Below are positions 146 through 61,273 of a stretch of DNA of 64,000 nt, one piece after another. The translations under genes and the position numbers were made by a program. The stretch is from Sinohyriopsis cumingii. Its lineage: Eukaryota; Mollusca; Bivalvia; Unionida; Unionidae. How positions within the stretch are numbered: the stretch's first letter is position 1; every line of letters starts with the position of its first letter. The notes beneath the pieces were generated by a model. It saw only the letters and a list, made by a program, of their open reading frames with translations. It searched no databases and was not told the origin of the DNA. The stretch covers positions 39,461,006-39,525,005 of the forward strand of contig CM068839.1 of NCBI GenBank assembly GCA_028554795.2. Reading direction: 5' to 3'.

Positions 146-186
146 AGCCCTTTTCAGGGCTACCCAATACTCTAGAAAAGAAATAA
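146..186 (+). terminator. Histone-type 3' stem-loop and purine-rich downstream element after gene X (left)
   Basis: AGCCCTTTTCAGGGCT (146-161) folds into a perfect 6-bp stem with a TTTC loop, the form bound by stem-loop-binding protein on replication-dependent histone mRNAs. It is followed by ACCCA and, about 12 nt later, by TAGAAAAGAAATAA, which resembles the purine-rich element that pairs with U7 snRNA. No AATAAA lies between the gene and this signal. Use in vivo is inferred. Confidence 0.8.
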
Positions 187-466
187 CGATCCATTTGCCA
201 ATGTGTGTAGGTAGAGTAGTGTGAAAATAAACACTAACTCTTTTATAAAAAAATGTGAGGGTATGTGTTGGTGTGTTTGTGTTTGTAAGAGCTAACGTAA
301 GTTGGTGAGGATAGTAGATTAAAATGATATCTTTTCTTAGTGTTTGAGGTGTATATTTGGGGTTAGATTGGATTGATTTGAGTATGTGGATAGTCCATTG
401 AAGTGATTTATAAAAAATTTTACAATAGTAATGGGTAGAATAAAAAGTGAGTGAGTGTTTCTTTTA
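187..466 (+). other. Spacer between genes X and Y (left)
   Basis: No gene is visible. The spacer is rich in GT, with phrases such as GTGTGTTTGTGTTTGTAA and GGATAGTAGATTA that recur in the other spacers of both arrays (1,090-1,260 and 51,010-51,340). It may be a spacer subrepeat or carry upstream control elements. Confidence 0.5.
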
Positions 467-567
467 GGTCCGCGCGTTGTTGTTTTTTCTTGGTCATGAT
501 CTAGGTAAGATGAATTTTATGTTATTAGGGGATGTTTTCCTTCACGTCCGCGCTTTCAGTATAAATT
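467..567 (+). promoter_or_regulatory. Promoter of gene Y (left)
   Basis: Three blocks recur in the array promoters: AGGTCCGCGCGTTG (about 467-480), TCATGATCTAGGTAA (about 494-508), and the core TTTTCCTTCACGTCCGCGC ending near 553. A TATA-like TATAAAT follows at 560-566 and the ATG lies at 618. The constant spacing over five copies supports a real pol II core promoter. Confidence 0.7.
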
Positions 568-617: not shown

Positions 618-953
618 ATGAACACGAGACTTGAGAAACTGTTGGAGCTTCATGTGCATCTGGAATATGCCAGGCGCATATTAAATGAACTGGCCGCGGA
701 AGCCATTGTCGAGGAGGGAAGGATAAGAGAGGAGGAAAGAAGAAACAAAGAAGAAGAAGAAAGAAGATATAAAGAGGAAAGAAGAAACAAAGAAGAGGAG
801 GAAAAGGAGAGAAGAAATTTCAAAATCCCAGAGAGCGAAAATTGGGATTCTGAAGCGACATATCCTGCCTCTGCTCTCTCCCCCCAAAAGGTAAAAAGTA
901 ACTGGGGGATAAGATGTGTATGTGGCGCCAGGCCTGGAAGGTGCCACCATTAA
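618..953 (+). CDS. Gene Y, left copy: small helical Lys/Glu-rich protein with Cys/His tail
   Basis: The product has 111 residues. Residues 1-33 form a predicted helical segment rich in Leu and Arg (LLELHVHLEYARR). Residues 34-68 are an Arg/Glu/Lys-rich coiled-coil-like stretch, and the last residues read CVCGARPGRCHH, which could bind a metal. The paralogue at 50,617-50,931 is identical at 27 of the first 33 residues and shares the Cys/His tail, while the charged middle differs in length and sequence. Conserved ends around a variable middle suggest a translated gene. The ATG lies 57 nt after a TATA-like box and a histone-type stem-loop begins 30 nt after the stop. I do not recognise the family, and it has no histone fold. 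Confidence 0.7.
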   Translation: MNTRLEKLLELHVHLEYARRILNELAAEAIVEEGRIREEERRNKEEEERRYKEERRNKEEEEKERRNFKIPESENWDSEATYPASALSPQKVKSNWGIRCVCGARPGRCHH

Positions 954-982: not shown

Positions 983-1023
983 AGCCCTTTTCAGGGCTAC
1001 CCAATACTCTAGAAAAGAAATAA
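983..1023 (+). terminator. Histone-type 3' stem-loop and downstream element after gene Y (left)
   Basis: AGCCCTTTTCAGGGCT (983-998), then ACCCA, then TAGAAAAGAAATAACG. The stem is perfect and the layout matches that after gene X almost base for base. Confidence 0.85.
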
Positions 1024-1864: not shown

Positions 1865-1897
1865 GGCCCTTTTCAGGGCCAGCCATATATCTCGAAA
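1865..1897 (+). terminator. Histone-type 3' stem-loop and downstream element after gene Z (left)
   Basis: GGCCCTTTTCAGGGCC (1,865-1,880) fits the animal histone consensus GGYYCTTTTCAGRGCC. CGAAAAGAGATAG follows about 12 nt downstream as the probable U7-pairing element. Confidence 0.88.
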
Positions 1898-9858: not shown

Positions 9859-11620
9859 AAAATAATTCCTCAGATTATATCTGAATACTGCTAAAAGTGA
9901 CTCCACAAAGACATATAAAAAAGTAATGAATAATTTTGACGACAACACCTTTGTACAAAAACCTATTATACAATAAGATGGCCATGATGTGGGTAATTTC
10001 CCCTTCAAATTTGTCATCAATTTCACTTCTAATATTTACTAATGTCTAAAGGACATGTAAACATATTTACAAATATTGTCTTAAAGAGCAATCCGCAATC
10101 ATGAACAAAGGATCGCTATCTAAATAGGTTGGTTATAAATGAACATTAGCTTAAACTACAAGCAACAATCAGGGATACACGTTAAAATAGGAAACATGTA
10201 AATTTCTTATGAATAATACAAAGTATACCCAAAATAAAGCAATATAGTGCTTCTATACAAGCGAAATTGCATCTACAATCAGATGATCTGAGCCAATGAA
10301 GTTCCAATAACAATGTTGCATTCTTACAACATTGGACATTACCACAGTAATATATGATCTTTGTTTTTGATTTTATGAATGAAAGTAATGGGTTTGTGAT
10401 CACTGGATACAATAATCGGAGAAAGAGCTATAATAATATACACTTCAAATTGTTGCAAAGCCAATACCAAAGTCAAACATTACTTCTCGATTACAGAATA
10501 ATTTCTCTGGTGTTTGTTCAAAAAAAGCACACTGGATGATCCACGCCATTTTTGTCTTCTTGACTCAGTACTTTGCCATCCCCAACAACACTTGCAAAAC
10601 AGACATTTGAAATGATTGATTGAAAATATGGAGATGAAAGAAATGGTGCAGCTCTTAAATGTGGCGTTTAGTTTAACAAAAGCCTCCGTAACTTAGATTT
10701 CGTACTGCCCAAAATAGCCAGTGCTTCAGCAATTACGCGAAAATTGGAGCAACATTTCCGATAAAATCCAGTCATACCCAAATAGCGCATCAGTTGCTTT
10801 TCTCTGACAGGCAAAGTATTTGTTTTAAATTCAAGACCCTGACTTTGACCTCTTTGAAACATGAACATCTGGAATAGCTGTGCTTTTATTTTGTCGATTT
10901 CTTTTTATCCGGACGTGCATTTTTTTTTGTTGTTGTTGAAAAAAGTGCACATTCCAAGAGATTTCTGTTCCTTACTTTCCAACATTTAGCAATCATAAAT
11001 GCCGTGCTCTTTCTTTTTACAGTAAGTGCATGTATGAAGAGATAAGGATTGAAGTTTGGAAGTACCCATATGAGACTGATATGATTATTTTGCCAAACAC
11101 CCGCTGAAAGGAGAAATGAAACGTTGTGAGTCAAAGCCTAGTTATCAACTAGGTGAGAAGCATTTTCCAAAGTTTTCACCTTACTTCACAATTGGTGTAC
11201 TTCGTAAAATCTTCAATTAATATGAGTTGCGTGAGGTTATCCTAATCTTCCTCAAACTTCTTGGTTGAGTACCACCTGTCTTAATAGTGGTTCTTTTTCC
11301 TATGCAAATTTGACATGCGGTTGTTCAGTTTCTTTTCTACAACTCCTCATTTACCAACTTATAACCGTTCAAGATATATTCCTTAACTGCATCATAAACA
11401 GTTGTACCGGCGGTGAAATGTAGACTATACGCGCTTAGCCAAGAGGTACACTTTGTAAGAATAAAGTTCAACGCTCTCTTGGCCATTTAGCAATTTTCTC
11501 AAAGCAAAGAAAGTGTTTATCTACTTCATTTTCCTCAAAAAAAGGTGGTACTAACCTAATAGTTTGGGTAATCTCAAAAGCTGAACTTGTGTGTAAAGGG
11601 GGTGGTAGGGGTAGGGGTGG

Positions 11621-38689: not shown

Positions 38690-40474
38690 AATAATTCCTC
38701 AAATTATATCTGAATACTACTAAAAGTGACTATACAAGGACTTATATAAAAACGTAATGAATAATTTTGACCACAATGCGTTTGTATAAAAACCTATTAT
38801 ACAATAAGATGACCATGATGTGGGTCATTTTCCCTTCAAATTTGTGATCAATTTCACTTCCAATATTAAATAATGTCAAGAGGACATGTAAACATGTTTA
38901 CAAATATTATCTTAAAGTGCAATCCGCAATCATGAACAAAGGATCGCTATCTAAATAGGTTGGTTAAAAATGAACATTAGCTTAAACTACAAGCAACAAT
39001 CAGGTATACACGTTAAAATAGGAAATATGTAAATGTCTTATGAATGATACAAAGTATACACAAAATAAAGCAATATAGTGCTTCTATACACGCGAAATTG
39101 CATCTACAATCAGATGATCTGAACCAATGAATTTCAATAACAATGTTGTATTCTTACATCAGAAACTACCACAGTACTATCTGATCTTTGTTTTTCATTT
39201 TATTCATGAAAGTAATGGGTTTGTGATCAATGGATACAATAATCGTAGAAAGAATATACACTTCAAATTGTTGCAAAGCCAATATCAAAGTCAAACATCA
39301 CTTCTCGATTACAGAATAATTTCTCTGGTGTTTGTTTAATTTTTAAAAGAAATATCACACTTGATGATCCAAACCATTTTGTCTTCTTGACTCAATACTT
39401 TGCGATCCCCAACAACACTTGCAAAACAGACATTTGAAATGATTGATTGAAAATATGGAGATGAAAGAAATGGTGCACCTCTTAAATGTGGCGTTTAGTT
39501 TAACAAAAGCCTCCGTAACTTAGATTTCGTACTGCCCAAAATAGTCAGTGCTTCAGCAATTACGCGAAAATTGGAGCAAAATTTCCGATAAAATCCAGTC
39601 ATACCCAAATAGCGCATCAGTTGCTTTTCTCTGACAGGCAAAGTATTTGTTTTAAATTCAAGACCCTGACTTTGACCTCTTTGAAACATGAACATTTAAA
39701 ATAGCTGTGCTTTTATTTTGTCGCTTTCTTTTTATCGGGACGTGCCCTTTTTTCTTCTTTTTTAAAAAAAAGTGCACATTCTAAGAGATTTCTGTTCCTT
39801 ACTTTCCAACATTTAGTAATCATAAATACGATGCTCTTTCTTTTCACAATAAGTGCATGTATGAAGATATAAGGATTTGCGATCTGTCGTATCAGATGTT
39901 TGATTTCTAAATGCTGTGCCGGATTAAAAGTTGGAAGTACTCATATGAGACTGATATGATTATTTTGTGAAACAACCGCTGAAAGGAGAAATGAAACATT
40001 GTGAGTCAATGCATAGTTATCAACTAGGCGAGCAGCATTTTCCAAAGTTTCCACCTTGCATCCCTATGGATGTACTTCTTAAACTCCTCAATTAATATAA
40101 ACTGCGTGAGGTTATCGTAATCTTCCTCAAACTTCTTGGTTGAGCACCACCTGTCTTAATAGTGGTTCTTTTTCCTCTGCAAATTTGCCATGGGGTTGTC
40201 CAGTTTCTTTTCTACAATTCCTCATTTGCCAACTCATAACCGTTCAAGATATATTCCTTAACTGCATCATAAGCAGCTGTACCGATGGTGAAGTGTAGAC
40301 TGTACGCGCTTTGCCAAGAAGTACACTTTGTTAGAATAAAGTTTAACGCTCTCTTGACCATTTATCAATTTTCTCAAAGCAAAGAAAGTGTTTATCTACT
40401 TCATCTACCTGAAAAAGGTGGTACTAACCTAATATTTTGGGTAATCTCAAAGCTGAACTTGTGTGTAAAGGGGG

Positions 40475-41480: not shown

Positions 41481-41835
41481 TAATTTTGATAAACACAAGC
41501 ATACTCATACCATTTCTCTTTTTAAAAAATATCTGCTTCAAAGTGACATGACAATTTTGCATTAGTTTTGAACATTGTCAGTAATGCTTGCTTTTATCAC
41601 TAGAGTAAATCTCAAGATTATTAACATTGCCTTTCTATGACTTGTCTTTACGTGACTGCATTTTATAATACATTAAACCCTTTAGGAAGGGATTTGTTTT
41701 TCCCAGTTCTTGTAAAATTATACACCAGCGTATTTGTGTCGAAACAAAAGTTCTCCATTACCTGGTAAATTACTGTATATTGCTTGTAATTCATGCATTT
41801 GGGTGCTTTCTTCATCTGTATATCCATCTTGAATG
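41481..41835. other. No gene seen
   Basis: AT-rich DNA before the minisatellite. Confidence 0.4.
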
Positions 41836-42237
41836 TACTTTCCATATTATTTAAATCTGTCCCTCTCCAATAACTTTCCATATTATTTAAATCTGTCCCT
41901 CTCCAATAACTTTCCATATTATTTACATCTGTCCCTCTCCAATAACTTTCCATATTATTTACATCTGTCCCTCTCCAGTTACTTTCCATATTATTTACAT
42001 TTGTCCCTCTCCAAAAACTTTCCATATTATTTACATCTGTCCCTCTCCAGTTACTTTCCATATTATTTACATCTGTCCGACTCCAGTAACTTTCCATACT
42101 AGTTACACCTCTCCCTCTCCAATAACTTTCCATATTATTTACATATGTCCATCTCCAATATACTTCCATATTATTTACATCTGTCCCTTGCCAGTATACT
42201 TCCCATATTATTTAGATCTGTCCGACTCCAGTAACTG
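41836..42237. repeat. 36-bp minisatellite, about 11 copies
   Basis: The unit reads CCATATTATTTACATCTGTC then CCTCTCCAATAACTTT. The period of 36 keeps frames open: the minus strand reads MESYWRGTDVNN repeated through 41,663-42,169 and the + strand is open too. Without a promoter or a conserved start I treat these frames as by-products of the period. Confidence 0.95.
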
Positions 42238-42241
42238 GTTT

Positions 42242-42422
42242 CAGTGGCGTCAGTAAAGGGGTGCTGGGGGTGTGGATCGCTCTGGGTGACACCATCAGAG
42301 AAAGTGATAACAAAATGACTGTCTAGAAAGAAAAAAAAAAATTTTTTTTGCAGGTAGGAGGTCCATGGGCGTGACACCATGAGTTACCACACTGGGTGAC
42401 ACCAACCCTAGTGACGCCACTG
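42242..42422. mobile_element. hAT-type MITE, 181 bp, with 8-bp target duplication
   Basis: The terminal inverted repeats are CAGTGGCGTCA and TGACGCCACTG. The flanks carry a perfect 8-bp duplication ACTGGTTT (42,234-42,241 and 42,423-42,430). Ends of CAGTGGCG type with 8-bp duplications are typical of hAT elements. It has no coding capacity, so it is non-autonomous. Perfect ends suggest fairly recent insertion next to the minisatellite. Confidence 0.85.
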
Positions 42423-46609: not shown

Positions 46610-47038
46610 ATGTATCCAGTGTACCGAGGGGTTGCTCGACAGCGAGGACACGGTTTAGGAGATATGTTGAAATCAGCCTTTCGTTCGGTGGCTCCAGTGT
46701 TGAAACCGATGGTGACACGAGGATTGCACGCCTTGAAAGATGCGGCACTGACGCAAGGCAAAGAATTTCTCCAAAATGTCATCATCGACAAACAAAACCC
46801 AAAAGAAGCCTTCTTGAGGGCAGGCAAAAATGTCTTGCTGCAAACGGGTAAAGACCTTTTGGGCCGACGAGAAACACGTATAAATGCCCTGCACGCTACT
46901 GAGTCAGGCATTCCTACTTCCTTGAAGCCACAGCAAGGACAAGGCAGAAAGAGACGACGAAGAAAACACCCTTTCACCAGACATCACACTTCTAAAGCTA
47001 GAAAGACAAAAAAAAAAGAAGAACTGTTCGAAACCTAG
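46610..47038 (+). CDS. pX-like basic virion protein
   Basis: The product has 142 residues. It has a Gly-rich start (RGHGLGDMLKSAFRSVAP), a predicted amphipathic helical middle and a strongly basic C-terminus (GRKRRRRKH and KARKTKKK). Polintons and adintoviruses encode such a protein between penton and capsid genes, resembling the adenovirus core/pVI group, with likely roles in DNA condensation or membrane disruption. The frame is intact. The start was chosen 3 nt after the preceding stop. Confidence 0.6.
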   Translation: MYPVYRGVARQRGHGLGDMLKSAFRSVAPVLKPMVTRGLHALKDAALTQGKEFLQNVIIDKQNPKEAFLRAGKNVLLQTGKDLLGRRETRINALHATESGIPTSLKPQQGQGRKRRRRKHPFTRHHTSKARKTKKKEELFET

Positions 47039-47066: not shown

Positions 47067-48371
47067 ATGATGCACCGAGAGTCTTGCGCTTGTTCGAAGT
47101 CGGAACTGGATCTGTTTGCCATGCCCCCCCCCCCCATGATGACGATGCAAGAATCCCAGTGGGTCGAATTTCATCCTGTCTCCTCTTTGACAGCCTCAGC
47201 TCCCATCGAGTTTGAAATCAAAGGACAGCCCGAAGATTACATCGATCTGAATAGTAGTTACTTGTACTTGAAAGTTAAAGTTGTAGATCAGGACAATTCG
47301 GACCTAGATGGCGATGAGGTACTAGCTCCCGTCAACAATTTCATGCATTCCTTGTTCAGCTCAGTGGATTTGTACTTGAAAAACAAACTAGTCAGTATCA
47401 GCATGGATACTTACCCTTACCGAGCGTACCAGGAAAATCTCTTGACGTACGGAAAAGAAGCCAAGAACACCCATCTGGATGCTTGTGTGATATGGAAACC
47501 TGACACACGATAGAAGTTTAAAATTCTAGACGAAAACAATGTGGAGTTTAAAGAGCGTAAAGAGAAAATTACTGGAAGCCGTAGTGTAGAACTGATGGAT
47601 CGCTTGCATTTGGACATGTGGTTGCAAGAGAAGTATTTGCTGAACGGTGTGGATGTCCGCCTGAGACTCAATCGCAGCAGTGCCACTTTCCATTTGTTGA
47701 CTAATGCTGCTGCTGCAGATTGCAAAACTGCCATTGAGAAAGTCAGGCTCTACGTACGACGCGTGGAAGTGTTACCTAAAGTGGGAAACGACATCAGTCA
47801 CACGTTGAGCAGAACGACTGCCAAGTATCCGATATGACGCGTGGAAGTGAAAACCTTCACCATTCCTAGGGGTCAGCGATCCATGATCGAAGATCATCTG
47901 TTCCAAGGACAGTTACCCAAACGCTTGATTATTGGTATGGTCGAGAATACAGCCTTCAATGGAGCCTCCGACGAAAACCCTTTTGAGTTTCGACACTTTG
48001 GCGTGTCCAAAATCGAAGTCAGTCGCGATGGCAAGACCTTGTGTACCCAACCTTTCGAACCTGACTTTGACAAGAAGAATTACTTGAGGTCGTACTTGTC
48101 CCTGTACGAAGCCACCGGACAGTTAGGAACCAACACCAGTCACGGTATTACATACGAAGATTATGCAGGAGGTTATGCTTTGTGGGCGTTTGATTTCACT
48201 CCAGACCAAGGCAGCGACGTGGGACATTTCCACCCTATAAAATCCGGCCAGATTCGAGTGGAAATTCAGTTTGCTTCAACTCTAACAGAGACGGTGAACG
48301 TCATCCTGTATGCAGAATTCGATAATACGATAGAAATCAACAGTTTGAGAGAAGTCATTCTAGATTATTAG
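47067..48371 (+). pseudogene. Major capsid-like protein (F54H12.2-like), two in-frame stops
   Basis: Three consecutive open segments (47,067-47,513, 47,541-47,837, 47,841-48,371) lie in one frame and are separated only by TAG at 47,511-47,513 and TGA at 47,835-47,837. The product begins with a Met/Pro-rich leader and continues with a beta-rich sequence (WVEFHPVSSL, SLFSSVDLYLKNKLVS, ending NTIEINSLREVI) like the invertebrate F54H12.2-like family, presumed double jelly-roll capsid proteins. Both stops could be C-to-T changes; the second fits CpG decay. There is no length-changing damage over 1.3 kb, so inactivation is recent, or the stops are read through. Confidence 0.7.
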
Positions 48372-48907: not shown

Positions 48908-49318
48908 ATGGATACCTGGGAACTTTATTATCTTTTGAACTACAGTTCGTATACTGCTTCTTGGAATCCTGTCGTCTGTGCTAAAGATGAACTCCCTCAT
49001 CGCAAACCTCAAGACCATCAAGCTTATGTGATCAACACGGACGACAGTCATCTCCCAGGAATCCACAGGGTAGCCGTCTACTTTCCTCAAGAAGGATGTG
49101 TGGAATATTTCGGTTCGTATGGATTGTCTCTTTTGGAAGACGATATCATTGACTTTATGAGAAGAAATGCTCAGACCACACGATTCAATAATGTGAAATT
49201 ACAAGGCACAGATTCCTTGGTGTGTGGACAGTATTGTGTGTATTTTCTGCATCATCGCAGCCTGGGCTATTCCTTAGAACATTTAGTGGCTCATTTTGAT
49301 CCTCGTTCTTCTTCTTGA
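48908..49318 (+). CDS. Adenain/Ulp1-type cysteine protease (virion maturation)
   Basis: The product has 136 residues, shorter than most adenains. His53 sits in GIHRVAVYF. Gln99 and Cys106 occur in LQGTDSLVCGQYCVYF, the expected oxyanion Gln and nucleophile of the family that cleaves capsid precursors. The acidic member of the triad, normally just before SYG or PFG, is replaced by Gly69 in EYFGSYGL, a single-base change from an Asp codon, so activity may be lost unless Glu66 substitutes. The gene follows the acidic gene by 24 nt. No histone-type stem-loop follows. Confidence 0.7.
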   Translation: MDTWELYYLLNYSSYTASWNPVVCAKDELPHRKPQDHQAYVINTDDSHLPGIHRVAVYFPQEGCVEYFGSYGLSLLEDDIIDFMRRNAQTTRFNNVKLQGTDSLVCGQYCVYFLHHRSLGYSLEHLVAHFDPRSSS

Positions 49319-49700
49319 AACGATGTGAAAGTAGATCGATGGTTTTGTGACCATTATACTTATCTTTGGCTCAAGCTAGGAAACGTAGTGTCCATCAATG
49401 GCCTAATGACTTCCAACAGTGGAAATCACAATTTCATTCACAATGTTGTCAACCCTGTCCAAAATAATGTGTTAGTTGAAAAAAATGTTTGTGATTTGAA
49501 AAAAATGTTTGATGTTAAATTGAATAGTTATTGTTAAAATGTTATAGTTACTTGTAAGTGTTAAGTGATTTTGAATAAAAATGTTGTGTTTTGAAAAAAA
49601 TGCCTTTGTGATTTGTTTTGCTATAGGAATCTTGATTAATGCTCTTTGACTTCTTACTATCCCTCTCATGACACTCATTGAACGTTCCTACTCGAAAACC
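49319..49700 (+). other. Spacer between protease gene and array
   Basis: AT-rich, with three copies of a TTGAAAAAAATG.TTTGTGATT-type phrase (about 49,477-49,620) and AATAAA near 49,574 that could end the protease transcript. No gene seen. Confidence 0.5.
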
Positions 49701-49707
49701 GTGTAGG

Positions 49708-49743
49708 GATGTTTTCCTTCACGTCCGCGCTTTGACCATAAAA
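49708..49743 (+). promoter_or_regulatory. Promoter of gene X (right)
   Basis: The core TTTTCCTTCACGTCCGCGC is followed by a TATA-like CATAAAA at 49,737-49,743; the ATG is at 49,797. The upstream TCATGATCTAGGTAA block is absent here. Confidence 0.65.
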
Positions 49744-49796
49744 CCGGGGGCAGCCTCCAGTCTAACCATCCATTGTCGACTCATCCTCCTACGAAG

Positions 49797-50171
49797 ATGT
49801 GCTCCGAACTAGCTAAACTAAACGAAGCCTACGTGAATTTGCATAGGGTCAGACACAGTCTGATACCGAAGCCAGAAGAGATAGAGAATGTGAGAATCTT
49901 AAAAGTCACTGAAGACCTGATAGAAGAGCTCTTCAGAGAAGAAATTAACAGGGAGAAGGAAGAATGGACAGAGAAGTAAAGACTCCAGAAACAGCAGAGA
50001 GAGCAGCAACAGAAACGACAACAGCAGCAGCAGCAACCTGAACCTGACAGAGGCTTTGTCGACTGTCGTATCGATACCAAAGAGTTCTTTTCTTTTCGAT
50101 GAAGCAGACCTTATCCTGCGAGAAAGCCTATTGTCAGAGGAGGTCGCAATCTTAGAACCTAAAAGATGGCC
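49797..50171 (+). pseudogene. Gene X, right copy: small helical protein, frame unclear
   Basis: The ATG frame gives 60 residues (MCSELAKLNEAYVNLHRVRH, then a Glu-rich helix) and stops at TAA 49,977-49,979. Past that stop the same frame stays open through a Gln-rich stretch and RGFVDCRIDTKEFF to TGA near 50,100. The +1 frame is also open across the whole region to TAG at about 50,171 and would give an acidic tail. Both tails are also readable in the left copy. Either the TAA is a mutation, or a frame change joins the parts. The helical N-terminus resembles those of Y and Z, so the three may be paralogues. Confidence 0.5.
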
Positions 50172-50199
50172 ATAGCTTCAGGTTCACACACAAAAAAAC

Positions 50200-50235
50200 A
50201 TCTCTTTTCAGGGCTAATCCAATCTCTAGAAAAGA
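50200..50235 (+). terminator. Histone-type stem-loop after gene X (right), decayed
   Basis: ATCTCTTTTCAGGGCT (50,200-50,215) keeps the loop and right arm, but the left arm has one mismatch and one wobble pair. TAGAAAAGAAATAAC follows. Decay here fits the damaged gene X. Confidence 0.7.
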
Positions 50236-50404
50236 AATAACAATCGATTGCCTATAATAAGTTCAAAAAATAAAAGTGCGTGTATAAGCACATGAATTCT
50301 TTATCTTGCTTAGAAACTGTGTGTATAAGTATTTTCTTTAAGTGGCTTGTCAACATGTTTTAGAATAGTGATGGGTAGTATAAAAAAGTGAGTGAGTGTT
50401 TCTT

Positions 50405-50564
50405 TTAGGTCCGCGCGTTGTTTGGTCATGATCTAGGTAATATAAGTTTTGTCTTAGGAGGATGTTTTCCTTCACGTCCGCGCGTTTTAAGTGATGCTCT
50501 AGGTAATATAAGTTTTGGGTCTTAGGGGATATTTTCCTTCACGTCCGCGCTTTTCGTATAAATA
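50405..50564 (+). promoter_or_regulatory. Promoter of gene Y (right) with duplicated core motif
   Basis: AGGTCCGCGCGTTG lies at about 50,407, TCATGATCTAGGTAA at about 50,427, a first core at 50,461-50,484, a decayed ATGCTCTAGGTAA block, a second core at 50,528-50,553 and TATAAATA at 50,557-50,564. The ATG follows at 50,617. Confidence 0.75.
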
Positions 50565-50616
50565 CAAAACTAGTCGGCAGGTGGCTACCCATCGTTGACC
50601 TGTTAACAGCAAGACA

Positions 50617-50931
50617 ATGAATACAAGGATTGTAAAACTTCTAGAACTCCAGATACACCTGGAATATGCCAGGCGTATAGTGAATGAGCGGGCTGCGGAG
50701 GCCATTGTTGAAGAAAGAAGAATAAAAGAGGAAGAGGAGCAAAAAAGGAAAAAAGAAGAGGAGGAAAAGAAAATAGGAGAGAGGATGGCTTACAATATTC
50801 CAGAGACAGAGGATTGGGGTGCTGAAGCCAATTATCCTCCCTCTGCGCTCCCAGTCAAAATAGTAAACTGGAAGAAAGATTGGAGGTTTAGATGTGTCTG
50901 CGGTGCCAGACCAGGGAGGTGCAACCATTAA
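50617..50931 (+). CDS. Gene Y, right copy: small helical Lys/Glu-rich protein with Cys/His tail
   Basis: The product has 104 residues: a helical N-terminus (LLELQIHLEYARR), a Glu/Lys/Arg-rich middle shorter than in the left copy, and a conserved end RCVCGARPGRCNH. Compared with 618-953, the changes are concentrated in the charged middle, and gaps keep the frame, as expected under selection for a protein. The Cys/His tail might coordinate a metal. Genes X and Z flank it in the same orientation. Function unknown. Confidence 0.72.
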   Translation: MNTRIVKLLELQIHLEYARRIVNERAAEAIVEERRIKEEEEQKRKKEEEEKKIGERMAYNIPETEDWGAEANYPPSALPVKIVNWKKDWRFRCVCGARPGRCNH

Positions 50932-50958
50932 CCATGTGCGCTGGAGTTCAAAACAAAC

Positions 50959-50998
50959 AGCCCTTTTCAGGGCTAGCCAAAAACCTTGAAAAGAGATA
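50959..50998 (+). terminator. Histone-type stem-loop and downstream element after gene Y (right)
   Basis: AGCCCTTTTCAGGGCT (50,959-50,974) is a perfect stem-loop that begins 28 nt after the stop codon; TGAAAAGAGATAG lies about 12 nt further on. Confidence 0.85.
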
Positions 50999-51009
50999 GT
51001 AATCCATTT

Positions 51010-51340
51010 GCCAATGTGTGTATATGATTGTGTGTTTGTAAGCGCTAGCCTAGGTTTGTGTGGATAGTAGATTATTGGGTTTTGTAATCACTCACGTACG
51101 TTTGTGTGGATAGTAGATTTGGGTTTGATTTTAATGCTTTGCGTGTGTGGATGGTAGATTTGGGGTTTAATTTTGCTGCTTAGTGTGTGTGTGGTATAGT
51201 TTGGGTTTTGTAAGCGCTAACGTACGTTGTGTGGATAGTAGATTAATGGGTTTGATTTTTTGCTCATTGGCGTGTGCGGATGGTATATTTTGGGTTTGTT
51301 TATTGCTGCTTCGCGTATGTGGATAGTAGATAATATGAGA
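51010..51340 (+). repeat. Spacer repeats between Y and Z (right)
   Basis: Five or six degenerate units share GTGTGGATAGTAGATT and TGGGTTT, with GCGTGTG variants. They correspond to the spacer phrases of the left array and may be multiplied enhancer-like elements. Confidence 0.6.
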
Positions 51341-51354
51341 TGAGAAAAGTAGGG

Positions 51355-51390
51355 GATGTTTTCCTTCACGTCCGCGCTTTTCCTATCAGA
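51355..51390 (+). promoter_or_regulatory. Promoter of gene Z (right)
   Basis: The intact core TTTTCCTTCACGTCCGCGC is followed by CCTATCAG where the other promoters have a TATA-like box, so the box is weak or lost. The ATG lies 60 nt on. Confidence 0.65.
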
Positions 51391-51442
51391 ACTCATAGTG
51401 TTGGTCGTTCGCACCATTCCACGGAATAACGGAAAGAAGAAC

Positions 51443-52027
51443 ATGGCAACAGTGACAAGTTTATTTAACGATTTGAGACATAGCTATTTTTGGATCATGG
51501 ATGGGACTTATGTAGTAGAAAGACTGAATAAGGAAGGAAGATTTGAAGGTAGCCTGAACAATGTGAAGAGTCTTGGAGTAGCAAAAGACCTAACAGGGGG
51601 AATGATTGAGGAAGAAGTAGAAAGAATCAGAGGATTTATTGACCCACCTTACGTGAGAGTAGGTAGTTTAAAGGAAGCCTTGGATCATGTCATAGAAGTC
51701 AGGAGCTTCCTAGAAAATAGCTTTTACTGGACTAACTGGTGGTACGTAAAGTGGGGTTTTAACCAGTTGATAAAAGCAGAAGAACTAATTAGAGAGATAA
51801 TGAAAGTAGAAGTGATGAAGATAAAAGAAAAATGGAGTAAAGAGAGAAAGGAAGAAGAGAATAAGAAGAAGAAATTAGAATTTGAAAGATTGAATAACAA
51901 CTGGATGAAGATCCAACAGAAATTCAGAGCGATGGGTTATAATGACTGGATGACAGAGACTGAAAAGAGGAAGAAGAAAAGAATTTTGGGAAAGATAAGG
52001 GGATGGTGGAAAAAATGGAGGAAATAG
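51443..52027 (+). CDS. Gene Z, right copy: helical protein with basic Trp-rich tail
   Basis: The product has 194 residues. The ATG at 51,443 was preferred to the longer upstream frame because it lies at the same distance from the promoter core as in the other genes. Residues 1-65 have no counterpart in the left copy. Residues 70-120 (SLKEALDHVIEVRSFLE and on) align with the left protein's helical start. A Lys/Glu stretch, a second helical part and the basic tail LGKIRGWWKKWRK follow. It is far less low-complexity than the left copy, so homology searches should start from this protein. A stem-loop follows 24 nt after the stop. Confidence 0.75.
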   Translation: MATVTSLFNDLRHSYFWIMDGTYVVERLNKEGRFEGSLNNVKSLGVAKDLTGGMIEEEVERIRGFIDPPYVRVGSLKEALDHVIEVRSFLENSFYWTNWWYVKWGFNQLIKAEELIREIMKVEVMKIKEKWSKERKEEENKKKKLEFERLNNNWMKIQQKFRAMGYNDWMTETEKRKKKRILGKIRGWWKKWRK

Positions 52028-52051
52028 AAGCAGAAGAAGAAGAAACCCAAA

Positions 52052-52090
52052 GGCCCTTTTCAGGGCCCCTTCATATACCTCGAAAAGACC
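52052..52090 (+). terminator. Histone-type stem-loop and downstream element after gene Z (right)
   Basis: GGCCCTTTTCAGGGCC (52,052-52,067) is a perfect stem; CGAAAAGACC lies about 12 nt downstream. Confidence 0.88.
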
Positions 52091-52129
52091 TTGACTTTCA
52101 TGCCTACCCCTTTTTTTTTTTTTAAAAAA

Positions 52130-52470
52130 ATAGAGACCCTCCCTGTTTAAATTTTCCCATGTTCAATTTCCATAGACCCATAAGGTCGGGACCGTATTAA
52201 AATAGGGTCCCGACCCTGTTCAATTCCCCTTGACGCTATAGTGCCGGTCGTGTATTCCCCATGTTAAATTCCCCTTGACCCTATAGTGCCGGTCCTGTAT
52301 TCCCCATGTTAAATTCCCCATGACCCTATAGTGCCGGGCTAGTTTTCCCATGTTAAATTTACATAGACCCTATAGTGCCGGTCCTGTATTCCCCATGTTA
52401 AATTACATAGACCTTATAGTGCCGGGCTAGTTTTCCCCATGTTAAATTTACATAGACCCTATAGTGCCGG
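52130..52470 (+). repeat. Tandem repeats closing the right array
   Basis: Six or seven units of about 45 bp read CCCCATGTTAAATT then CATAGACCCTATAGTGCC and GG. A 9-bp inverted repeat (GGTCGGGAC / GTCCCGACC) at about 52,185-52,215 can form a hairpin. The repeat ends in the same phrase as the left copy, marking the probable element end. Confidence 0.75.
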
Positions 52471-60349: not shown

Positions 60350-60810
60350 ACCTGAATAATGAAACATCTAGGTAACATGGAGCACATAACAAGGTCCACA
60401 TACCATGATTTGATACCAAATAATGCAACATCTACATGATATGTAGCAAAGAACAAGGCCCACATACCATGATGTGACACTAAATAACCATCTATCTGAA
60501 GTGGAGAACTGAACAAGGCCCACATACCATGGCGTGACACTAAATAAACATCTAGTTGATGTGGAACACAGAACAAGGCCCACATACCATGATGTGACAC
60601 CAAATAATGAAACATCTAGGTGCTATGGAGCACTGAACAAGGCCCACATACCATGATGTGACACCAAATAATGACACCAAATATTGAAATATCTATGTGA
60701 TATGGAGCACAAAACATGACCCACATAGCATGATGTGACACCAAAATAATGAAAAATCTAGGTGCTATGATGCACAGAACAAGGCCCACATAACATGCTG
60801 TGATACCAAC
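60350..60810. repeat. Tandem repeat, unit about 62 bp, 7 copies
   Basis: Units share GAACAAGGCCCACATACCAT then GATGTGACACCAAATAATGA with small length changes. Minus-strand frames across it repeat YLVSHHGMWALF and are by-products of the repeat. Confidence 0.9.
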
Positions 60811-61273
60811 AAATTGTGTTATGATGTAAATCTGATTTGCAAAAAAAAAGTTACAAACACTTGAACACAGAATAGTTGCAATGCTGCGACTGCAGAAAAA
60901 GGAATTTTGATGTCTCTCCCTTTTCTAGTGCATACAATATCCACCCACCCTCAATTCACATATGACCAAAAATTAAGCATGCCTGTTTCAAACAATGAAA
61001 AAAGTTGCTTTGTTACATGTACATCAAAATCATAATTTAAAAAAATTCTTATCATATAGCTAATCATATCTATGATATGATTACAACAAATCAGAAGCAA
61101 TATTTAAGAAATATTGATGAAATAAATTTTGTTCTCGCAAATTTATACATATACATTGCACAAATATATTATATTTTCAACAACTAATAAATACAAAGAA
61201 CATAGCTTCAAAACCTTTTCTGAGTTGCCAATTAATTATACACTATTAAAAGAAAAACATGGCATTACAACAA

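Follow-up and report, generated by a model that had tools for sequence, protein, structure and literature searches.

Replication-dependent histone genes of metazoans rely on a 3' stem-loop, on the stem-loop-binding protein (SLBP) and on the U7 small nuclear RNA (snRNA), and according to part of PMC6303110 this 3' end is, in animals, restricted to histone mRNA. Elements of the Maverick/Polinton type (adintovirus group) encode a type B DNA polymerase (PolB), an integrase with rve and chromo domains, an A32-type ATPase and an adenovirus-like protease. Here we describe a locus of the bivalve Sinohyriopsis cumingii that resembles both, within a stretch of 64,000 nucleotides (nt) that we call the window (GCA_028554795.2, contig CM068839.1, positions 39,461,006-39,525,005, forward strand). 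The gene array in the window is best explained as one end of an endogenous Maverick/Polinton with many copies in the genome. The element has the four genes just named and 15-21 kb between its outer loops; unlike known Mavericks/Polintons, it has histone-type 3' ends on five accessory genes (V, W, X, Y and Z) and histone-type promoter elements on three of these (X, Y and Z) as well. These genes are like metazoan histone genes in their stem-loop, flanks, downstream element, spacing and short uninterrupted frames, and unlike them in encoding non-histone proteins and in lying within a mobile viral element.

We estimate the probability at roughly 0.78 that the Maverick accessory genes mimic replication-dependent histone genes, X, Y and Z at both ends, and would thus be expressed via the S-phase histone machinery. 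The likeness is seen in the letters and their spacing and conservation, in what is shared with the host's histone genes, and in repetition across the genome. In the literature, the matches listed, a set outside which the main adintovirus paper lies, include no virus or transposon whose genes have a histone 3' end; the related PMC10294476 and PMC11071308, in the parts covered by a word search, nowhere mention histones.

Histone-type 3' ends in the window

A first-pass annotation had reported six histone-like stem-loops, five of them perfect, each followed at a similar distance by a purine stretch. Pattern RGCCCTTTTCAGGGCY, which we used to count mismatches, recovers all six, five without mismatch and one (50200-50215) with two. 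The genes and signals are as follows.

146-161, plus strand: stem-loop of X, array 1 (the gene extends off the window); 0 mismatches; RF00032 31.0 bits at 141-186
172-182, plus strand: downstream element CTAGAAAAGAA of X, array 1
618-953, plus strand: gene Y, array 1; 111 amino acids (aa), Lys/Glu-rich, C-terminal Cys motif
983-998, plus strand: stem-loop of Y, array 1; perfect, 29 nt past the stop; RF00032 match
1865-1880, plus strand: stem-loop; RF00032 35.6 bits
49797-49979, plus strand: gene X, array 2; open reading frame (ORF) of 60 aa in this copy
50200-50215, plus strand: stem-loop of X, array 2; 2 mismatches, 220 nt past the stop of the 60-aa ORF
50617-50931, plus strand: gene Y, array 2; 104 aa
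50959-50974, plus strand: stem-loop of Y, array 2; perfect, 27 nt past the stop; RF00032 match
52052-52067, plus strand: stem-loop; RF00032 31.3 bits

The Rfam histone 3' model (RF00032, curated cut-off of 34 bits) matches five of the loops, with one score over the cut-off (35.6 bits at 1860-1905) and four under it (31.3, 31.0, 31.0 and 24.9 bits); the imperfect loop at 50200-50215 gives no match up to E=10. The host's own histone genes, five in an 8.3-kb tandem unit (L061), each bear the loop and score 35.0-39.4 bits. We therefore assign the viral loops to one class with them. In the rest of the genome, all 75 of the 75 best candidates exceed the cut-off (top score 45.6 bits), and this set, being made of best candidates only, is therefore uninformative on weaker loops. 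The purine stretch was also recovered: AAAAG lies 14-15 nt past the loop at all six sites, a spacing equal to that of the host histone genes, and the core of the downstream element, CTAGAAAAGA, has the same letters in host H3, H4, H2B and H1. Both traits of the replication-dependent histone expression class, the 3' stem-loop and AAAAG at the proper spacing, are thus present. The annotation's interpretation is supported, since the loops score as histone 3' ends and other copies of the array carry the signal. Beyond what it had proposed, histone promoter elements stand on X, Y and Z, and the same 3' ends occur on V and W at the opposite end of the element.

Hairpins are known at the ends of giant-virus and virophage genes, and the loops could be general transcription terminators or RNA-stability elements with no tie to the histone pathway. 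We regard this as highly improbable: the loop, its flanks and the downstream element fit the histone signal at fixed spacing, and X, Y and Z have histone promoter elements in addition.

Layout, conservation and selection of the accessory genes

V and W are divergent at one end of the element, and X, Y and Z are in tandem at the other. The loops of V and Z lie at opposite ends, with similar repeats (by eye), possible terminal inverted repeats, beyond both, and the outermost stem-loops are ~15-21 kb apart. All five genes have short uninterrupted ORFs, and none encodes a histone, as the annotation had stated for those of the array. The distance from stop to loop in V, W, Y and Z is mostly 15-36 nt.

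We compared 14 Y and 13 W ends (W search hits excluded; windows shifted one base from the stem). Averaged over pairs, identity reaches 0.95-0.96 for the stem-loop and 0.92 for the downstream element, but the intervening spacer has 0.71-0.79 and the sequence from 60 nt onward 0.73-0.85. The stem begins with an A-U pair in X and Y, and with G-C instead in Z, V, W and the histones; the H1 stem has a U-A pair at a site where the others have C-G. Among intact ORFs, the ratio of nonsynonymous to synonymous change (dN/dS) is 0.11 for V (62 of the 66 pairs among 12 copies, after removal of saturated pairs) and 0.16 for Y (6 copies), so that both look to be under purifying selection.

These data bear on the idea that the signals are relics, i.e., that the element once captured the flanks of a histone gene and that the signals have spread with its copies, unused. 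Some copies do have broken ORFs and damaged loops, and the letters are like those of host histone ends throughout, as a relic would have it. The idea is nevertheless unlikely: the signal stands at similar distances on V, W, Y and Z, which are different genes, stem and element are more conserved than the spacer, the first stem pair varies in a compensated fashion, and selection on V and Y seems to be purifying.

Promoter elements shared with host histone genes

The promoters of X, Y and Z contain elements of 19-23 nt that are common to the host H2B and H1 promoters and, for Y, to the H4 promoter. In the window, they are found at these positions.

458-476, plus strand: TTTCTTTTAGGTCCGCGCG, H4-type element upstream of Y, array 1
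529-553, plus strand: promoter element GGGATGTTTTCCTTCACGTCCGCGC of Y, array 1, common to host H2B and H1
49706-49730, plus strand: promoter element of X, array 2
50399-50417, plus strand: H4-type promoter element upstream of Y, array 2
50459-50483 and 50526-50550, plus strand: promoter elements of Y, array 2, with 1 mismatch each

The window has seven occurrences of the GGGATGTTTTCCTTCACGTCCGCGC element, all of them before X, Y or Z. In the host histone unit, its 23-letter core has 22 letters alike in the H2B promoter and 21 in that of H1. TTTCTTTTAGGTCCGCGCG precedes both copies of Y and has an identical stretch in the host H4 promoter. The alignment scores of X, Y and Z with H2B and H1, and of Y with H4, were reached by none of 200 shuffles. 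The promoters of V and W contain TATA boxes together with CCAAT-like motifs. The CGTCCGC core looks similar to the HINFP site of H4 genes. According to part of PMC5706932, HiNF-P and NPAT act at H4 promoters at G1/S.

Sharing by itself shows no direction. The element could have passed from the virus to the host histone genes, or both could retain an old S-phase element, with no copying by the virus. We consider this quite improbable, given that H2B, H1 and H4 (and, by eye and on the opposite strand, H2A) each have their own version of the element; mimicry would remain even so.

A search for host H3 gave 150 scored matches in the genome, some of them fragments. Separately, dispersed frames of 31-48 aa have an H3 N-terminal tail (L062:977-1072, L063:1017-1112, L064:1018-1113, L065:992-1138 and L066:939-1037), those in L062, L063 and L066 near a repeat ORF of YRGARLEQY... 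form. They have no adjoining histone stem-loop by Rfam and perhaps belong to a mobile element that acquired an H3 tail exon.

Repetition across the genome

The annotation had asked for the signals in other copies of the array, and they are abundant. Exact matches to the stem-loop with its downstream element number 54,065 in the host genome, those to the promoter element 31,228 and those to the H4-type element 9,328, with 0 for each reversed pattern used as control; these totals, like that of the poly(A) pattern below, include the host histone clusters. Positions were taken from the first 100 matches listed per pattern, all on C1. Among the matches listed for the first 3.1 Mb of C1, a stem-loop stands on the same strand 200-1000 nt downstream of 39 of the 51 promoters (random control: mean 0.65, maximum 4 of 51), and none of the 51 has one when the other strand is read. 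Conversely, 36 of the 64 listed loops outside V-W pairs have a listed promoter at 200-1000 nt, and among the listed H4-type elements 9/17 stand 66-79 nt before a promoter element.

The element and its core genes

The annotation's virus-associated array belongs to an element with the core genes of a Maverick/Polinton. Other copies encode a type B DNA polymerase (L072; DNA_pol_B_2, E=4.9e-34), an integrase (L069; rve, E=2.6e-14; Chromo, a chromodomain, E=1.3e-7), an A32-type packaging ATPase (L069; Pox_A32, E=8.7e-8) and an adenovirus-like cysteine protease, whose likeness is weak in the L074 copy (ASFV S273R, E=1.3e-4; adenain, E=0.1-0.2) and comes without a Pfam match. The candidate ORFs for a double jelly-roll capsid protein were named by eye and have no Pfam match in the window or in other copies. 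The window has the following features of this kind.

46610-47038, plus strand: core-protein-like ORF, named by eye; no Pfam match
47067-48371, plus strand: capsid-like region, named by eye; two ORFs here and in L074; no Pfam match
48908-49318, plus strand: adenovirus-type cysteine protease ORF, shorter than the L074 copy
49574-49579, plus strand: AATAAA past the protease gene, also in L074

The 19-mer around the protease AATAAA occurs in 2,416 exact copies genome-wide (reversed control, 0) and, among the matches listed, stands 146-155 nt before a promoter in 7/7 copies that lie in the range covered by the listed promoters. A second AATAAA follows the ORF downstream of PolB, in a single copy. 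Rfam finds no histone loop in the core pieces L069 and L072, which run from PolB to the integrase and beyond, and in L074 the sole such loop is that of X. The core genes thus seem to be polyadenylated, given the conserved protease signal, the AATAAA past the ORF downstream of PolB and the lack of loops in L069 and L072. Because these pieces have no loop, L074 has only that of X and the poly(A) signals lie 146-155 nt before promoters, the changeover from ordinary poly(A) ends to genes of histone type appears to fall between the protease and X.

Elsewhere in the window, a 36-bp tandem repeat at 41663-42265 (minus strand) lies inside an open frame and encodes MESYWRGTDVNN repeats; segments 9913-11345 and 38744-40220 are duplicates with 89-98% identity, in the same orientation and ~28.8 kb apart; and a repeat at 60354-60814 has seven copies spaced 60-77 nt.

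Evidence that weighs against histone mimicry

Several results count against the proposed mimicry. Regarding the 3' ends, just 1/6 of the window loops passes the Rfam cut-off; 9/46 loops with an upstream ORF miss the 15-36 nt range, one being at 7 nt and eight at 56-350 nt; and X lacks a loop in the 90 nt past its stop (one copy tested). The neighbours of the loop are also conserved (stop-to-loop, 0.82-0.88; just past the element, 0.87-0.89; ORF ends, 0.78 and 0.90, the latter for W), and dN/dS is 0.45 for W (9 copies), whose copies are closer to one another. AATAAA is weakly depleted within 200 nt past viral stem-loops (6/60 vs 10.6 expected from letter shuffles). At the promoters, the X-H4 score is reached by 1/200 shuffles and the Z-H4 score by 8/200, X, Y and Z are at or near the level of the 200 shuffles when compared with the H2A and H3 promoters, and those of V and W are without the CACGTCCGC element, with a likeness to H3 not above shuffles. 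On C1, among the matches listed, 12/51 promoters have no loop at 200-1000 nt, 28/64 loops outside V-W pairs have no promoter in that range and 8/17 H4-type elements have no promoter within 400 nt. As to the host machinery, the Rfam model found no U7 snRNA in the genome, its control being silent too; a U7 pattern gave 36 matches vs 30 for the reversed control, and a stricter pattern gave 0. SLBP was not found exon by exon with the Pfam domain or part of the human protein, searches of which one had a silent control and the other had none.

Three of the 36 U7 candidates were examined and rejected: a single repeat accounts for two of them, and all three lack a convincing 3' hairpin.

A possible histone-style expression class in a DNA virus lineage

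If the accessory genes mimic histone genes as we propose, host histone transcription factors would drive X, Y and Z in S phase via the shared promoter elements. The U7 small nuclear ribonucleoprotein would, with SLBP, cut the 3' ends of V-Z, the putative U7 pairing stretch being CTNGAAAAGA. The V-Z mRNAs would end in the stem-loop, without poly(A), and the core genes would use ordinary polyadenylation. The accessory proteins would then be timed to DNA replication, for a virus copying its DNA in the nucleus. S-phase expression, use of SLBP and U7 and lack of poly(A) are predictions drawn from the sequence.

In a wider sense, the balance tips slightly towards a DNA virus lineage that has remodelled some of its genes after the host's replication-dependent histone genes, in promoter and 3' end, with a class expressed in S phase and free of poly(A) (V-Z) beside a polyadenylated core. 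Its signals would far outnumber the host's histone 3' ends and perhaps compete for SLBP, U7 and histone-locus-body factors. If true, this would be a new route for a DNA virus to couple expression to DNA replication, and V-Z would be natural non-histone substrates for SLBP and U7. A further question is how tens of thousands of extra signals may affect the host's histone supply.
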